Shown here: one piece after another, positions 30,281 through 59,350 of the stretch
How positions within the stretch are numbered: the first letter of the stretch is position 1
Layout of the letters: each line of letters starts with the position of its first letter
Assembly: GCF_014201585.1 (NCBI RefSeq)
Contig: NZ_JACHES010000005.1
Span: 132,248 to 196,247, forward strand
Direction: 5' to 3'
From: Anoxybacillus tengchongensis
GTDB lineage: Bacteria > Bacillota > Bacilli > Bacillales > Anoxybacillaceae
DNA: 64,000 bases
The notes under the pieces: generated by a model
Databases searched by the model: none
Seen by the model: the letters and a program-made list of their open reading frames with translations, nothing else
What the model was told of the DNA's origin: nothing
Translations under genes and position numbers: made by a program

Positions 30281-30320
30281 TATTGTGAAAAAGCTGATGG
30301 CGATCAGCTTTTTCACAATA
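30281..30320. terminator. Bidirectional terminator shared by the B12 operon and metH
   Basis: An 18-bp perfect stem, TATTGTGAAAAAGCTGAT (30281-30298) with its exact complement at 30303-30320 and a 4-nt GGCG loop. The A5/T5 tract sits inside the stem, so each strand reads an oligo-T stretch. It follows cobO by 8 bp and overlaps the last codons and stop of metH on the other strand. Confidence 0.8.
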
Positions 30321-33300
30321 CGTTAAAGTATCTTGCCTCCGGATGGGCGAAGACGATCGCTGAAACGGACGCCTCTGGTTCCATCATATAGCCTTCCGTT
30401 AAATGAATGCCGATTTCTTCTGGGCGTAAAAGGCGGAACAGCTTTTCTTGGTCTTCAAGATTTGGACAAGCAGGATAACCGAAAGAAAAACGTTGTCCTT
30501 GGTATTTTGCCGCAAACCGTTCTTCCATTGTAAAATCAGGCGAATCAGGAAAGCCCCAACGGTCGCGCATAATTTGATGAACGCGCTCGGCTAATCCTTC
30601 CGCTAGTTCAAGCGCTAACGCTTGAATCGCGTGGCTTTTTAAAAACTGCCCTTCTTCTTTGAAACGTTGGGCTAAATCGCGCACGCCTCGGCCAGCGGTG
30701 ACGGCAAATAGTCCGACGTAGTCGATTTGTTCATTAGAAAGATAGTCGGCTAAACATAAATACGGTGCTTTCGTTTGTCTTGGAAACGTAAATGTCTCGA
30801 TAACCGTTTGTTGATCGCGTGGGTCGTAAATGATGACCGTATTGCCGTCGCTTTTTGCTGGGAAAAATTGATATACCGCTTTTAGTGCAAGTGACGTTGT
30901 TTGTTTGGCTTCAGCGAGCAGTTCGTCGATCAACTCTTTTAACATCGTCGCTTTTTCATTTCCTTCCGCCAGCAGCTTTTTTACGCTTCCTTTTAAACCG
31001 AGATGGTGACCAAGAAGCATTTGCCAATTGACGTACGGTTCAATATGGGAAAGCGGAATGTGTTGCAATATATGTCGCTCTGTATCGGTCGGAACATAAA
31101 CGGGTGCTGGCTTCACGTTCGATTTTGTCATAACGGCGACGGCGCTTTGTCGTTTTGTGACATGTTCGATTTTTTCTTTTTTCTCATAGGTGATGTCTTG
31201 TTGGACGATGCGATTCGCAAGCGTAAGTCCTTCCATCGCGTCTTTCGCATATAAAACGATGCCGTCATATTCTGGGGCAATTTTTGTATCGGTAAATTTG
31301 CGCGATAGCGCTGCACCGCCGACTAAAATCGGTAGCGAAATGCCCGCTTGTTTTAAGTCTTGCGCAGTGAGCACCATTTGTTGTGCGGATTTCACAAGCA
31401 ACCCCGATAAGCCGATCATATCGGGCTGTTCGTGACGCACCGCTTCGATGAGCTGTTGCGGTGTTACTTTAATGCCTAAATCGACGACGCGAAACCCGTT
31501 GTTGCTTAAAATGATGTCGACTAAATTTTTGCCGATGTCGTGCACATCGCCTTTGACGGTCGCAAGCAACACTTTTCCTTTCACGCTCGTTTCATTTTTC
31601 TCCATATGCGGTTCTAAAAAGGCGACTGCTGCTTTCATCACTTCTGCGCTTTGCAGCACTTCGGCAACGATAAGCTGGTTATCATTAAACAAGCGACCGA
31701 CTTCATCCATTCCGTTCATGAGCGGCCCGTTAATAATGTCAAGCGGGCTGTACGTTTGTAAAGCGAGCGTCAAATCTTCGATCAGTCCGTCTTTCGTTCC
31801 TTCAATGACGTATGTGGCGAGCCGTTCTTCTAACGTCATATGGACGTTTGCTTGTTTTGGCTGTTTTGTTTTATCGCGATAAAATTGAATAAACGCGTTT
31901 AACGTTTCATCATTCGTGTCAAATAACAATGCCTCGGCTAAGCGTACTTCTTCTTCTGGAATGGAAGCGAATCGCTCTAATTTTTCTGTATTGACGATTG
32001 CATAATCAAGTCCGGCTTGTGTGCAATGGTATAAAAAGACGGAGTTTAACACTTCGCGTCCGACAGGTGGCAAACCGAAGGAAACGTTACTAATGCCGAG
32101 CATCGTTAAACAGTTTGGCAAATGTTGTTTAATGAGCCGAATGCCTTCGATCGTCTCTTTTGCTGCGCCAATATATTGTTCGTCTCCTGTGCCGATCGGA
32201 AAAACGAGCGGATCGAAAATAATGTCGTGTGGTGAAACACCGTATTTGTTGACGAGCAAATCGTACGAACGAAGGGCGATGTCTAGCTTTCGTTTTGCGT
32301 CAATCGCCATCCCTTGTTCGTCAATCGTGCCGACGACGACCGCTGCCCCGTATTGATGAAGAAGCGGAACAATTTTTTCAAACCGCTCTTCTCCGTCTTC
32401 TAAATTAATGGAGTTAATGATCGCTTTTCCTTGCGAATACGACAATGCGCAGGCGATGACGTCTTCATCGGTCGAGTCGATCACAAGCGGCACTTTCACT
32501 TTTTTCACGACTTGTTGAATAAATTGCTCCATATCTTCTTTTTCATCGCGGTCAGGGTCCGCTAAACAAATGTCGATAACGTGCGCCCCGTTTTTTACTT
32601 GAGCGCGGGCAATTTCTGCCGCTTCTTCATATTTTCCTTCGGCGATGAGCCGCTTAAATTTGCGCGAGCCGATGACGTTCGTTCGTTCGCCGACAAAAAG
32701 CGGGCGCATCGTTTCGTCGTAAATAAGCGCATCGATGCCAGAGACGGCGTGCACCGCAAACTGCTTCGGAATCGTGCGCGGTGGGATGTCACGCACAGCT
32801 TCGGCAATGGCGCGAATATGTTCCGGCGTCGTTCCGCAGCAGCCGCCGACGATATTTAACCATCCTTTTTCGGCAAATTGGCGAATTTTTTTCGCGAGCA
32901 TGTCCGGTGTTTCGTGATAATGTCCTTCTTCGTCTGGAAGACCGGCATTCGGATAACAGCTGACGGCCGTGTTCGCTAATGAAGCGAGCGAGCGCAAATG
33001 ATCGGTCATAAATTCAGGACCTGTTGCGCAGTTTAAACCGACCGCAAATGGCTTCATATGTTGAATGGAAATAAAAAACGATTCGATCGTTTGCCCGGCA
33101 AGCGTTGTTCCCATCGGTTCAATCGTTCCAGAAATCATAAGCGGCACTTGCTTTCCAACCGTTTTGAACGCTTCGGTAATGCCGAGAAAAGCAGCTTTCA
33201 CGTTTAACGTATCTTGGCACGTTTCTAACAACAACAAATCGACGCCGCCAAGCAGTAAGCCGCGCGCTTGTTCTTCGTAGGAAGAAACGAGTTCAGCAAA

Positions 33301-33702
33301 CGTTGCTCCCCCTGTGACGGACAGCGTTTTTGTCGTCGGACCTATCGAGCCAGCGACAAAGCGCGGGTGTGCAGTCGTCGTATATTTTTCTGCCGCGCGT
33401 TTCGCGAGTTTCGCGGCTTCGATATTTAATTCAAGCGCCAAATGGCCGAGGTTGTATTCGTCTAAGACGATGCGTGTCGCTCCGAACGTATTCGTTTCAA
33501 CGATGTCTGCTCCTGCGGCAAAATAAGCTTCATGAATATGTGAAATGACGTGCGGAGCAGTGAGTGTTAAATATTCGTTACATCCTTCGTACGCTTCACC
33601 GCCAAAATCGTCCGCTGTTAAGTTGGCTGCTTGAATCATCGTTCCCATCGCACCGTCAATAATTAAAATTTTTTTCTCAAGCTGTTCAAATAAACTAGCC
33701 AT
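30313..33702 (-). CDS. metH: Cobalamin-dependent methionine synthase
   Basis: 1129 residues from ATG 33702; the frame extends 13 codons more, into yitJ, without a site. Domains in order: homocysteine domain (1-~310; [31 protein letters not shown] zinc cysteines), folate domain (~340-600; [17 protein letters not shown]), cobalamin cap and binding domain (~630-870; [15 protein letters not shown] is the DxHxxG motif whose His coordinates cobalt), and the SAM-dependent reactivation domain (~900-1129; [23 protein letters not shown]). It transfers methyl from methyltetrahydrofolate to homocysteine in the cytoplasm. It overlaps yitJ by 8 bp and should share its S-box control. Confidence 0.96.
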
Positions 33703-35548
33703 GATAAACCGTCCTTTCTTTTGTGAGCCGCTCTTTTTCATGAATGTAGCGAACGAGTTCGACCGTCATATCGTAACGTAAAAATGGTGTAATTAAATAA
33801 ATGCCTTGGAATAAATCGAATGCTGCATCGATGAGTGATTTGGCGATCGCCAAGCCTTCTTTTGTTGATTGAACAGGATCGTTGGCGCACGTAGCCATGC
33901 GGGCACGAATGTCGTCTGACAGCGTAATGCCTGGCACTTCATGATGTAAAAAGTCAGCGTTGCGCGCGCTTGTAATTGGCATGATGCCGATGTAAATCGG
34001 CGTTGGTAAATGTTTTGTCGCTTCATATACGTCTTTGATTTGTTTTTCGCTATACAGCGGTTGTGTTAAAAAGTAGTGCGCCCCGCATTCAATTTTTTTC
34101 TCTAGCCGCTTGACCGCTTTATCTAAGTGGCGCACGTTCGGGTTAAAGGCCGCAGCGATGGAAAAGTTCGTTTTTTGTCCGAGCGGTTTACCCGAGTACG
34201 AAAGCCCTTCGTTAAATTGCCGAATTAACGAAATGAGGTCAAACGATGATAAATCATATACGGACGTTGCGCCAGGGAAATCGCCTACTTTGGACGGGTC
34301 GCCTGTTAAAGCGAGTACATCGGTCATGCCGAGCGTATGAAGTCCCATTAAATGCGACTGTAAACCGATTAAATTGCGGTCGCGGCACGTAATATGAATA
34401 AGTGGGCGCATATTTAGTTGTTGTTTGACGATTGTTCCGACAGCGACGTTGCTAATGCGAGGTGTCGCAAGCGAGTTGTCGGCAAGCGTTAGTGCGTCAA
34501 TATGTGCGTCTTTTAATGCTTTTGCGCCTTCTAAAAATTTCGTTAAGCCGAGTTTTTTTGGCGGATCGAGCTCGACGATAATCGACCGTCGCGTGCGTGC
34601 AATATCGGCAAGGGAAGGTTGTTTCGTTTGTTCTGCTTCTTGAACGACAATGGTATGCCGTTGTTTCACTTCTTTTTTATATACAGGTGTGCGATCGGGA
34701 AGGGCGCGAGCAATCGCGGCAATATGTTTTGGCGTCGTGCCGCAACAGCCGCCAATGAGTCGAACCCCTTGATCACGAAACGCCCGTGCCGTTTCTTCAA
34801 AATATTGTTCGCTCGTTTCGTAAATGAATCGACCGTCGCGATATTGTGGCAAACTCGCATTCGGGTACACCGATAAAAAGGCGCGCGTTGGAATCGGTAC
34901 TTCTTCGAGCGAGCGCAACATATGATACGGACCGAGATGGCAGTTTAAGCCGACGACATCGGCACCAAGTTGTTCTAATTGACGAAGCGCCTCGGTAAGC
35001 GGCATGCCATGTTGCAAGACGCCAATGTCATGAAGCGTGACGTGGGCGATGATCGGCAACGTCGTTTCTTTACGAGCGATGGAAAGAACGGTTTGTAATT
35101 CTTCGAAATCGTAATACGTTTCAAGTAAAAGCCCGTCAACGTCTTCGCTTAACAGGACATACAACTGTTCCCGAAACGTCCGTTTCACTTCTTCAAGCGA
35201 AATCGTACTTTTGTTTGTGCTGCGCAATCCTCCGATCGTACCGAGGACGTAGGCACGTCCTTTTGCTGCTTGTTTTGCAAGTTGGACAGCCGCTTTATTG
35301 ATTTCTTTTACATCGTCCTGCAAACCGTAGCGAGCAAGTTTCACATAGTTGGCGCCGTACGTGTTCGTTTGGATCACTTCAGCGCCTGCTTCGATATACG
35401 CTTCGTGAATATGAACGATTTCTTCCGGTTTTGTTACGTTTAATTCTTCAAAGCAACGGTCGATGCCGTGCGCATATAATAACGTTCCCATCGCTCCGTC
35501 GGCGATGACGATGCGTTGTTTTAAATCGTCTAACAGTCCCACGTCCAT
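33695..35548 (-). CDS. yitJ: Bifunctional homocysteine S-methyltransferase / 5,10-methylenetetrahydrofolate reductase
   Basis: 617 residues. N-terminal homocysteine methyltransferase domain (1-~290; [36 protein letters not shown] with zinc-binding cysteines) and C-terminal MTHFR domain (~320-617; [47 protein letters not shown]). It makes 5-methyltetrahydrofolate, the methyl donor used by MetH next to it. The methyl donor for its N-terminal domain is not evident from sequence. ATG 35548 follows ACGGAGG. It is first in a two-gene operon behind a SAM-I riboswitch. Confidence 0.95.
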
Positions 35549-36383: not shown

Positions 36384-36411
36384 TAAACAAACTGTCGAAT
36401 GTTGTCGATAT
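36384..36411 (+). promoter_or_regulatory. Sigma-D-like promoter of the BMP lipoprotein-chemoreceptor pair
   Basis: TAAA (36384-36387), 16 nt, then GTCGATAT (36404-36411). The sigma-D (motility sigma factor) consensus is TAAA, about 15 nt, then GCCGATAT, so the -10 matches at 7 of 8 positions. An overlapping TATAAT at 36409-36414 has no good sigma-A -35 partner. The downstream chemoreceptor fits sigma-D control. Confidence 0.6.
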
Positions 36412-36460
36412 AATAAATGAAGTAGGATTTGATCGAAAGATAAGGAGATGAGGGAATTTT

Positions 36461-37426
36461 ATGAAAAAAATCATTTCACTCATGATGGCATTCGTTTTGT
36501 TGCTTGCCGCTGGGTGTTCACAAACGAGCTCCTTTCAGCCGAAAGAGCGTGTGAAAATTGGCATTATGTTATCAGACGTCGGACTTGGCGATCAATCATT
36601 TAGCGACTCGGCATTTCAAGGGTTAATGAAAGCGAGAGATGAGCTCGGCATCTTTTTTGACTACCGTGAGTTAAAAGAAACAGGAACGTATGAAAAAGGG
36701 TTAACAGAACTTGTTGAAGCAGGAAACGATCTCGTCATCGGACTTGGCTTTATGGTGCAACAAGATTTAGAAAAAGTCGCAAAAAAATATCCGAAACAGC
36801 AATTTATATTAATTGACGCGGTATCTAACCTCCCAAACATTACGTCCATTACGTTTAAAGAAGATGAAGGGAGCTTTTTAGCAGGTGTTGTCGCAGCAAT
36901 GCTGACGAAAACAAACAACGTCGGCTTCGTTGGTGGAGCGGATGTGCCATTGATTCGGAAGTTTGCGAACGGCTTTATTCAAGGGGTAAAAGCGGTGAAG
37001 CCAGAAGCAAACGTGCAAGAAGTGTATGCCGGCAATTTTGGCGATGACAAGCTTGGAGCACAAATTGCCAAACAAATGATTGCCAACGGCGCAGATGTGT
37101 TGTATGCGGCGGCTGGGTTTACAGGTGTCGGGGTGCTACGCGAGGCGGAGATGAACAAAAAGTACGCGATCGGTGTCGATAGCGACCAATATTTTTATGC
37201 GGAAAAAGCGGTGGTCACATCGATGTTAAAAAATGTAGATGTTGCGTTATATACGGTCATTAAACAGTATGTTGAAAAGAAAGAAGTGCCAAAAGGAACG
37301 GTCGAACTTGGGTTAAAAGAAAACGGCGTCGATTTAGCACCGATTCGTGTCGTGACGCTCAGTCCAGAGCAACAGGCGACGCTTGAAAAATGGAAAGAAA
37401 AAGCGACAAACGGCATCACGCAATAA
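36461..37426 (+). CDS. BMP-family substrate-binding lipoprotein
   Basis: 321 residues. Lipoprotein signal ends LLLAAGC (C19). The rest is a basic-membrane-protein (BMP/PnrA, Med-like) periplasmic-binding fold: KIGIMLSDVGLGDQSFSDSAFQGL, QQFILIDAV, SFLAGVVAAMLTKTNNVGFVGG, DVLYAAAGFTGVGVL, YAIGVDSDQYFYAE. BMP proteins usually bind nucleosides for an ABC importer, but no permease or ATPase gene is nearby. Instead a chemoreceptor gene starts 12 bp later, so it may present its ligand to that receptor. It is a distant paralogue of Med at 58397. The ligand is unknown. Confidence 0.88.
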   Translation: MKKIISLMMAFVLLLAAGCSQTSSFQPKERVKIGIMLSDVGLGDQSFSDSAFQGLMKARDELGIFFDYRELKETGTYEKGLTELVEAGNDLVIGLGFMVQQDLEKVAKKYPKQQFILIDAVSNLPNITSITFKEDEGSFLAGVVAAMLTKTNNVGFVGGADVPLIRKFANGFIQGVKAVKPEANVQEVYAGNFGDDKLGAQIAKQMIANGADVLYAAAGFTGVGVLREAEMNKKYAIGVDSDQYFYAEKAVVTSMLKNVDVALYTVIKQYVEKKEVPKGTVELGLKENGVDLAPIRVVTLSPEQQATLEKWKEKATNGITQ

Positions 37427-37438
37427 AGGAGGGATACG

Positions 37439-39091
37439 ATGTCGATTAAACAACGATTATTATTTCATTCATTAGCAACGCCAGTCATTGCCGGCGCTAT
37501 TATTGTGTTTATTATTATAAATATGCTTTCGATTCAATCGTCCAACCAAGATTTCGTGCCGCTTATGATGAAGGCGCAACATTTACAAGCAGAGCTGAAA
37601 GCGACGAAGCAAAGTTTAAGCAACTATGCGTATAGCCCAACAGAAGGAAATAAACAAGAAGTACTTATTCATTTGGAAGAATCAGAAAAGTTGCTTCGCG
37701 TATTAAATAAAGGACTGACCCAATCGTACATTCGTGCTGCACTTGAACAAGCGAATAAAAAATTTGACGTGCTAGCTAAAGAATCGAAAGCGGCACTTGA
37801 TGGGCGGAACGTAGCAGAAATTCGCCGCCAATCGATGCGAGCAGAAGGGGTATTAAACGATATATATGTCGTCAACACATATGTGAGCGAATATTATACG
37901 TACATGCAACAAACGTTACAAAAACAAATTTCAGGCGTTATTACGATTTCGATTATTGCGATTGCAGTGGTGTTATTGTTTGCAGGATTTAGCGGATTTA
38001 GACTAACACAAAAAATTACGGTGCCGCTAAGAAAAATCGCTGAAAATGCGAAACAAATTGCAAGCGGCGATTTGCGTATTGAGACTGTGAAGTATAGCGG
38101 GAGAGACGAGCTTGCTGATTTAAATGAAGCATTTGCAACGATGGCTGATCAGCTGAATGGCTTGCTTCAATCGGTTGATACAGTCAGTAAGCAAGTAGAG
38201 GCGTTTGCGAAAGAAATTGATGAGGAAACAAAAACGTTAACAGAAATTAATAATCAAGTAGCTGTATCAACAAACGAATTGTCCGCTGGAGCGCAAAGCA
38301 TTTCTGAAGATTTACAACATGCGGTACAACTCATTGAACGAATGGAACATACTGTACAAGAAAACGTTGGGCGCACTGAACAAACGGCTCGTTATAGCGA
38401 TGAAGCGGTCGAAGCGATTGTGCACGGTCAAGCGGCGTTAGCGGAACAAAAAGCGTTTATTGATGAAAATGCACAGGCGACTGCCTCTATTGAACAATCG
38501 ACGGAACAGTTTGCGACGTATGCAAGAAAAATTGAAGATATGGCAAAAGCAGTATCCGACATTGCAACGCAAACGAACTTATTGGCGTTGAATGCGGCGA
38601 TTGAAGCGGCGCGAGCAGGAGAAGCAGGAAAAGGGTTTGCGGTTGTCGCTGAAGAAGTGCGCAAACTTGCGGAAGAATCATCGAAAGCGACAAGCCAAAT
38701 TTTTGAGATGGTTCACCTCATTCAATCGGGGTTAACGAACGTCACCGAAGCCGTTCGTCGTGGGGTAGATATTGCTGAAGCACAAACGAAAGCCATTGAA
38801 ACGACGACAGAGGCGTTTAGTGCTATTGAGAAAAAAGTACACCATATTACGACCGATATTCAAGCGCTTGTCATCGGCATGAATGAATCGAAAGAGCTTG
38901 GCAAAAACGTCTTGCAAAACGTTGAAAGCATTAGTGCGGTCGTTGAACAATCGGCAGCAGGCAGCGAAGAAATTGCCGCGTCGATGGTGGAGCAGTTAGA
39001 AGCGTTCAAAAAAATGAGCGAAAAAGTGACGACGTTGCGTCAACTTACAGATGATTTACAACGGACGATGGCAAAGTTTCAAATGAAATAG
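37439..39091 (+). CDS. Methyl-accepting chemotaxis protein
   Basis: 550 residues. First membrane segment about 14-30, an extracytoplasmic helical sensor (~31-165; repeated charged helices, four-helix-bundle-like), second membrane segment about 165-187, HAMP (~188-240; [18 protein letters not shown], then [17 protein letters not shown]) and a long cytoplasmic coiled coil with the invariant [13 protein letters not shown] [38 protein letters not shown]. It controls CheA and flagellar rotation. The sensor is small (~135 residues) and close to the BMP lipoprotein gene, suggesting indirect ligand sensing through that protein. Start ATG behind AAAGGAGGG. Confidence 0.93.
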
Positions 39092-39125
39092 AAAAAGATG
39101 CTCCGCGCGAGCATCTTTTTCTTTA
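39091..39125. terminator. Terminator after the chemoreceptor gene
   Basis: GAAAAAGATGCTC (39091-39103) pairs perfectly with GAGCATCTTTTTC (39109-39121), 13 bp with a CGCGC loop and T5 tracts on both strands. It probably serves the convergent small gene as well. Confidence 0.85.
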
Positions 39126-58396: not shown

Positions 58397-59350
58397 ATGA
58401 GGCGATATATATTTTTGATCTTTGCACTACTTTTTATTTTATCGGCATGCGCTCCTGTCCAGATGTCATCGGGGAAGTTGCAAAAAGTCGGCCTGCTTGT
58501 TCCTGATACGATTGATGATCAAGTGTGGGGAACGAAAGGATATAAAGGGTTGCTTCGCGTTCAAGCGAAATTTGGTGTCGATGTGTTTTATCGTGAAGGG
58601 GTAAACTCAAAGGCCGCGACTAAACAAGCGGTAAAAGAATTTCATCAAAAAGGCGTCAATTTAATTTTTGGGCATGGGAACGAATATGGGGAATATTTTG
58701 ATGACATCGCGGAAAAATACCCGAACATACATTTTGTATTTTTTAACGGAGAAGCGAAAAAGAAAAATGTAACGAGCTTTCAGTTTAAAGGGCATGCGAT
58801 GGGCTTTTTTGGCGGTATGGTCGCAGGGCATATGACGAAAACGAATAAAATCGGTGTTATTGCTGCGTTTGAATGGCAACCGGAAGTGGACGGTTTTTTT
58901 GAAGGAGCATTATATGAAAACGAAAACGTTCACGTTGATGTAGAATATGTGCAAAGTTGGGATGACATTGATGCAGCGATGGCAATTGTTGAGCGAATGA
59001 TCGCTGATGGGGTCGATATCGTATATCCTGCTGGCGATAAATTTAGCGTACCGATCATTGAAAAAATGAAAGAACATGGGCTATATGCGATTGGCTATGT
59101 GACAGACCAAGCAGATTTAGGGGAACGTACTGTGCTGACGAGCACCGTCCAACATGTCGATGCATTATATGAGCTCGTTGCGCAAAAGTTTATCGACAGA
59201 GAGTTAACGTCAGGAACGACATATGTTGATTTTCAAGACGGTGTCGTTGAACTCGGCACGTTTAGCCCGCTTGTCGATGAATCGTTCCAACAAAAAATAA
59301 CAGAAGCCATTGAACGATATAAAAAAACGGGGAAATTGCCAAATGAGTGA
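58397..59350 (+). CDS. med: Med, BMP-family lipoprotein (positive effector of comK in B. subtilis)
   Basis: 317 residues from ATG 58397; a TTG at 58394 has better spacing to the upstream GGAG and may be the true start. Lipoprotein signal ends FILSAC (C18). BMP/periplasmic-binding fold: VGLLVPDTIDDQVWGTKGYKGL, NLIFGHGNEYGEYF, FKGHAMGFFGGMVAGHMTKTNKIGVIAAFE. In B. subtilis Med raises ComK and affects competence. There med is followed by comZ; here only a terminator and the fabH promoter follow, so comZ is absent from this position. Confidence 0.9.
   Translation: MRRYIFLIFALLFILSACAPVQMSSGKLQKVGLLVPDTIDDQVWGTKGYKGLLRVQAKFGVDVFYREGVNSKAATKQAVKEFHQKGVNLIFGHGNEYGEYFDDIAEKYPNIHFVFFNGEAKKKNVTSFQFKGHAMGFFGGMVAGHMTKTNKIGVIAAFEWQPEVDGFFEGALYENENVHVDVEYVQSWDDIDAAMAIVERMIADGVDIVYPAGDKFSVPIIEKMKEHGLYAIGYVTDQADLGERTVLTSTVQHVDALYELVAQKFIDRELTSGTTYVDFQDGVVELGTFSPLVDESFQQKITEAIERYKKTGKLPNE

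Follow-up and report, generated by a model that had tools for sequence, protein, structure and literature searches.

A Bmp-family lipoprotein gene paired with a chemoreceptor gene in Bacillales, a candidate indirect sensor of nucleosides

Introduction

The maltose- and ribose-binding proteins of Escherichia coli serve both uptake and the stimulation of chemoreceptors. In Halobacterium salinarum, the binding proteins of the BasB/BasT and CosB/CosT pairs were co-purified with their transducers, and two further pairs, OE2170R-Htr6 and OE2196F-Htr18, are described with unknown ligands (PMC3579733). In Clostridium beijerinckii, the complex of XylFII and LytS was solved and XylFII rests on helices H3 and H4 of LytS (PMC9769921). 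The taxis of E. coli towards deoxyribonucleosides (thymidine) seems to be indirect and to involve Tap together with a binding protein not yet known (PMC12584664). Here we analyzed a stretch of 64,000 nucleotides from Anoxybacillus tengchongensis (contig NZ_JACHES010000005.1, positions 132,248 to 196,247; hereafter the window), in which the gene of a Bmp/PnrA-like lipoprotein directly precedes that of a methyl-accepting chemotaxis protein. We consider it probable that this pair is a dedicated indirect chemosensor made of two parts, with a nucleoside as the most likely ligand.

Results

The Bmp gene (36461-37426, forward strand) encodes a lipoprotein of 321 aa that matches PF02608 with 228.4 bits (cut-off 24.1, E 1.3e-67) and whose signal peptide ends in LAAGC, with Cys19 as the lipid anchor. 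The receptor gene (37439-39091) follows on the same strand after 12 bp and encodes 550 aa with the layout of a chemotaxis protein: behind a membrane-spanning sensor with predicted helices stand a HAMP domain (residues 189-240, 38003-38158, E 3e-11) and an MCPsignal domain (residues 334-501, 38438-38941, E 8.7e-34). Open reading frames and the three domain matches agree with the initial annotation on the nature, order and spacing of both genes.

To follow the two genes across the family, we queried 41 genomes from nine genera with the Bmp protein and, in a separate search, with receptor residues 1-210. The same 22 genomes carry both genes (Bmp identity 69-100%) and the other 19 carry neither; in 22/22 the receptor gene lies downstream of the Bmp gene, on the same strand, with a gap of 12-23 bp. 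Five genus codes (g1, g2, g3, g4 and g6) each mix pair-bearing and pair-free genomes, which suggests that the two genes were gained or lost jointly on more than one occasion.

A profile of the 22 family sensors was then run on 299 genomes of the order. It matched at 1e-3 in 142 genomes, in 112 of them at 6.4e-21 or better and near the full profile length; the remaining matches were partial, at 3.3e-6 or worse, and the line for the sensor type was set in the gap between these two values. The 112 genomes belong to 32 family codes, with 7 genomes from the window's own family. A Bmp frame was present just upstream of the sensor in 112/112, with a gap of -4 to 56 bp in 111. At locus L080 (genome G072) the gap is 451 bp and the Bmp match ends halfway, as if the frame were broken, and receptor frames are short or contain a stop in a few genomes (G069, G072, G142). 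In the opposite direction, a Bmp profile yielded 109 matches at 441-520 bits before a fall to 306 bits (NupN type), and all 109 close relatives adjoin the receptor. The three genomes with a receptor only in this comparison correspond to the broken frame and to loci L139 and L140, where the Bmp protein is divergent and still adjacent. Since the receptors behind the sensor profile were linked ones, a remote unlinked relative may have escaped it. In the order and phylum sensor searches, the order Bmp search and the order search for NupP, the first 7-10 candidates per genome were scored where more existed, and absences are less sure there than in the searches of the family, of the genus of genome G272 and of the NupP-poor genomes.

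A scan of genome contigs with the Bmp alignment gave 517 loci, the best 80 of which were examined as named loci. They come from Anoxybacillus, Parageobacillus, Geobacillus icigianus, Mesobacillus, Cytobacillus, Metabacillus, Priestia megaterium, Lysinibacillus, Ureibacillus, Peribacillus, Paenibacillus, Gracilibacillus, Bacillus safensis, B. pumilus and others. The sensor adjoins the Bmp gene in 80/80 (gap -4 to 35 bp) and the receptor frame measures 545-560 aa in 78, being shortened by a stop in two (L168 and L195). These two receptors and the Bmp frame of L080 may reflect decay or assembly error. One record titled Chryseobacterium sp. ISL-80 (L169, JAGGQZ010000006.1) holds a Bacillales-type pair whose Bmp protein is 66% identical to that of the window, and its title looks wrong. 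Among 398 genomes of the phylum, the nine strong sensor matches belong to the window's class and each has a Bmp gene upstream; none of the 14 weak ones had a Bmp frame in flanks of 1.5 kb. The G272 locus is 95% identical to the B. safensis locus; in that genus the sensor occurs in 20 of 44 genomes, and the Bmp neighbour was looked at in 6 of those 20. Overall, the adjacency that the initial annotation proposed to look for is conserved, and co-conservation, the lack of which was to count against the pairing, is near-perfect in both search directions.

We next considered the relation of this Bmp protein to transport. No permease or ATPase gene was found beside the pair among the open reading frames and domain matches at the window locus, in line with the initial annotation; the flanking genes are of the DUF520/YajQ type (upstream, divergent) and the DegV type (downstream, convergent). 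Elsewhere in the host genome, an ATPase gene and two permease genes lie beside another Bmp gene, the product of which is 45% identical to the Bmp protein of the pair, and by resemblance this locus appears to be NupNOPQ-like. Two control Bmp genes, on a Cytobacillus plasmid and on a haloarchaeal plasmid, also sit with an ATPase and two permeases. In flanks of up to 5 kb a side, none of the 80 named loci had NupP- or NupQ-like frames; a NupO-like ATPase frame was present in 15, at E 1e-32 or weaker in 14 and at 6e-111 in L178, where it lies on the other strand and more than 3 kb away. Conservation of this Bmp type with an ABC permease or ATPase as its partner, the outcome that was to speak against a sensor, thus did not appear in the named-locus or order searches. 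A transport operon at the window locus was rejected, the Bmp subfamily being linked to the receptor.

In a tree of 32 receptor-linked and 8 transporter-linked Bmp proteins, one branch with an SH-aLRT of 100 parts the two kinds, the window protein lying outside the transporter-linked branch, and 13 positions are branch-specific. This tree leaves out L139, L140, Med, the archaeal row and a few near-copies; in an earlier tree with long-branch rows the receptor-linked proteins did not form one clade. From the sequences, we infer that the Bmp protein of the pair is not the uptake system.

In BmpA and BmpD, the nucleoside is held by two stacking phenylalanines and by ribose-contacting Asp and Lys residues (PMC13325309, PMC7093131). 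By alignment, the aromatic pair and the Asp/Lys residues of such a pocket are present in the window protein as F47, F193, D119, D240 and K257, the BmpA numbering being transferred by motif and spacing and not by direct alignment with BmpA. F47, D119, D240 and K257 are each kept in 109 of the 112 order proteins and F193 in 106; the 80 named loci keep all five, except for a Tyr in place of F193 in three. Position 49, in a pocket loop, is Asp in 112/112 and 80/80 versus Gln in 10/11 transporter-linked proteins. The closest solved relative by sequence is 7x0r (Lbp), modelled with guanosine (PMC9601137). Some nucleoside is therefore the likely ligand. In L139 (genome G258) and L140 (G052), all five pocket residues are changed in a Bmp protein that still stands beside the same receptor type; these two proteins may bind something else, a possible switch of ligand.

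The initial annotation had described the receptor as carrying a small helical sensor. The ectodomain (about residues 35-163, 37541-37927) was predicted by AlphaFold2 as a four-helix bundle (pLDDT 86.1), with LytS among the fold matches, which bears this out. No Pfam model of the 4HB_MCP clan matched the window sensor; among 63 sensor members, 4HB_MCP_1 matched in 5 and HBM in 6, all weakly (best E 2.8e-4). With mean-field direct coupling analysis of 213 pairs (effective number 111), the scores between both proteins exceeded those of one permuted pairing; because such a permutation also erases shared ancestry, the excess is no evidence of a coupling between them.

The sigma-D-like promoter (36384-36411, forward strand) reads as initially annotated, with TAAA at 36384, 16 nt and GTCGATAT at 36404. 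The pattern occurs once in the 64 kb, versus 0.62 expected, which is within chance, and a promoter call from this window-wide count alone was rejected. The motif was scored against the sigma-D consensus. All 22 family loci keep 10-12 of the 12 promoter positions, about 61-100 nt ahead of the Bmp start, and in any locus at most 3.7% of shuffles score equally well. Across the wider set of 80 loci, at least 10/12 positions are kept in 36, versus about 2% of shuffles or other sequence windows, and 44 fall below this score. The promoter becomes convincing because of this conservation across the family loci, not by the window count. A SigD-type factor scored over the cut-off in 41/41 family genomes. 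These results suggest that expression of the pair is likely linked to motility through sigma-D. At the 17 other receptors of the host genome, the motif scored 7-9/12 each, with start codons that were picked by script and may be wrong; a sigma-D promoter as a general mark of the receptors of this genome was not seen by score. The ribosome-binding site of the Bmp gene, AAGGAGATGAGG, can be read at 36442-36453. A strong terminator hairpin of 14 pairs (39090-39122, fold z -6.4) lies after the receptor stop codon, which suggests that both genes share a single transcript.

The host genome (2.73 Mb in 29 contigs) carries a SigD-type factor, CheW-domain proteins and 18 receptor genes (20 rows, two of them pieces). 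No other pair of a binding protein and a receptor was found among 8 upstream open reading frames near the 17 other receptors. Another chemoreceptor gene is immediately preceded, on the same strand, by a gene for a nitric oxide synthase oxygenase (L267, G000:C7:85300-88900), and histidine kinase genes adjoin two other chemoreceptor-type genes, also on the same strand (L259 and L265, G000 C9). In the window, a second Bmp-family gene is located at about 58400-59344; its product, presumably Med judging by gene order, is 27% identical to the Bmp protein of the pair and is without the pocket pattern, and a Med-type identity for the latter was rejected. At 30313-35548, a gene of 617 aa, which by eye resembles a combined homocysteine methyltransferase and methylenetetrahydrofolate reductase, is followed directly by a MetH-like gene of 1142 aa.

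Discussion

The dedicated sensor put forward by the initial annotation is well supported at the level of the genes, by co-conservation and by the lack of transporter linkage. In the mechanism that we propose, the pair would be produced together with the motility genes, and the Bmp lipoprotein, anchored on the outside of the membrane, would bind a small ligand, most likely a nucleoside. Closed on its ligand, it would dock on the four-helix bundle of the receptor ectodomain, possibly at helices 3 and 4, and the docked receptor would alter CheA activity through the HAMP domain and the signalling hairpin. Uptake would be left to a NupNOPQ-like transporter elsewhere in the genome, with its own Bmp protein.

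Three other explanations have to be weighed against a dedicated nucleoside sensor. The Bmp protein could serve a NupOPQ-type transporter as a second binding protein and stimulate the receptor as well, so that uptake and sensing share it. Such sharing is the classical arrangement in E. coli, the host genome has its NupNOPQ-like set, and a NupP orthologue (E 1e-50 or better) was found in 252 of the 299 order genomes. However, at least 13 of the 112 pair genomes, picked by eye from the order search, have no NupP orthologue when all candidates are scored (best permease match E 1.4e-8, none in 4). In addition, the transporter has a Bmp protein of its own and the two kinds stand on separate branches with their 13 specific positions, which makes a shared protein improbable. 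A receptor that senses a ligand of its own, with a Bmp gene linked to it by co-transcription alone, is very unlikely. Direct binding of organic acids occurs in four-helix-bundle sensors, McpS and MCP2201 among them, according to the titles of their structures, but adjacency in 112/112 and shared presence or absence within five genera of one family far exceed what co-transcription needs, and this Bmp type occurred without the receptor in 0/109 cases.

The scaffold could also have been turned to a vitamin, a base, a modified sugar or another small molecule. The invariant Asp at position 49 and the loss of the pocket residues in L139 and L140 point in this direction, as does a match to the NCBIfam model of a putative vitamin B6 binding protein, which is weak (79.7 bits, cut-off 400). 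Against this stand the Phe, Asp and Lys contacts of the BmpA type, kept in 106-109 of the 112 proteins (PMC13325309), and the guanosine modelled in 7x0r (PMC9601137), so that we judge a non-nucleoside ligand unlikely, less so than a Bmp protein shared with transport.

A nucleoside sensor would meet a behaviour already described. Plant roots exude nucleosides, and B. pumilus b-13 is attracted by guanosine, 2-deoxyadenosine, 2-deoxyguanosine and thymidine with peaks at 0.01-1 mM, whereas the threshold of B. subtilis 168 for 2-deoxyguanosine is 1-5 mM; the mechanism of nucleoside sensing in B. pumilus is reported as unknown (PMC11120975). An intact pair is present in a B. pumilus record (L230) of another strain, GM3FR. 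B. subtilis 168 is not known to have the pair. The pair cannot be the only route of nucleoside taxis because B. subtilis, E. coli and Xanthomonas also show it. We give about even chances to a broader proposal, in which the pair serves Bacillales as their main chemoreceptor for nucleosides and is an obligate receptor of two proteins whose Bmp half split from the transporter branch, gave up transport and kept sensing only. If so, it would help to explain why b-13 responds at 0.01-1 mM and B. subtilis 168 only above 1-5 mM, and L139 and L140 would be cases of the module in transition to other ligands.

Present in 112 of 299 order genomes and in 32 family codes, the pair offers concrete candidate genes for a nucleoside taxis that lacks a known receptor. 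It would add the Bmp family to those known in indirect chemosensing and would provide a clear genetic case of a binding protein gone from transport to signalling, with a proposed docking face that could be probed through the branch-specific residues.

Among known systems, BasB/BasT and CosB/CosT are similar in that a binding protein and a chemotaxis transducer act as a pair, and in the pair of the window, the genes of a binding protein and a receptor likewise stay adjacent across genomes, with no transporter genes among them. The genes of the H. salinarum pairs are reportedly adjacent as well. They differ in being archaeal and in their ligands, branched amino acids and osmolytes, and BasB and CosB presumably belong to binding-protein families other than Bmp. 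In the Gram-positive pair XylFII-LytS, too, a binding protein passes a signal to a four-helix-bundle sensor, the fold of which matches that of the predicted window sensor, whereas LytS is a histidine kinase, the ligand is xylose and XylFII is of another family. The nucleoside taxis of E. coli through Tap was likewise judged indirect through a binding protein, but one that has yet to be named there, and the authors report no gene pair. NupN and PnrA/TmpC/BmpA/BmpD share the Pfam family and the pocket residues with the window Bmp protein, but they are parts of ABC transporters, whereas the window branch goes with a chemoreceptor. No published description of a Bmp protein with its own chemoreceptor stood among the top-ranked results of the literature searches made. 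Overall, indirect sensing through binding proteins is already known, and what appears to be new here is a Bmp-family protein paired with a chemoreceptor of Bacillales.
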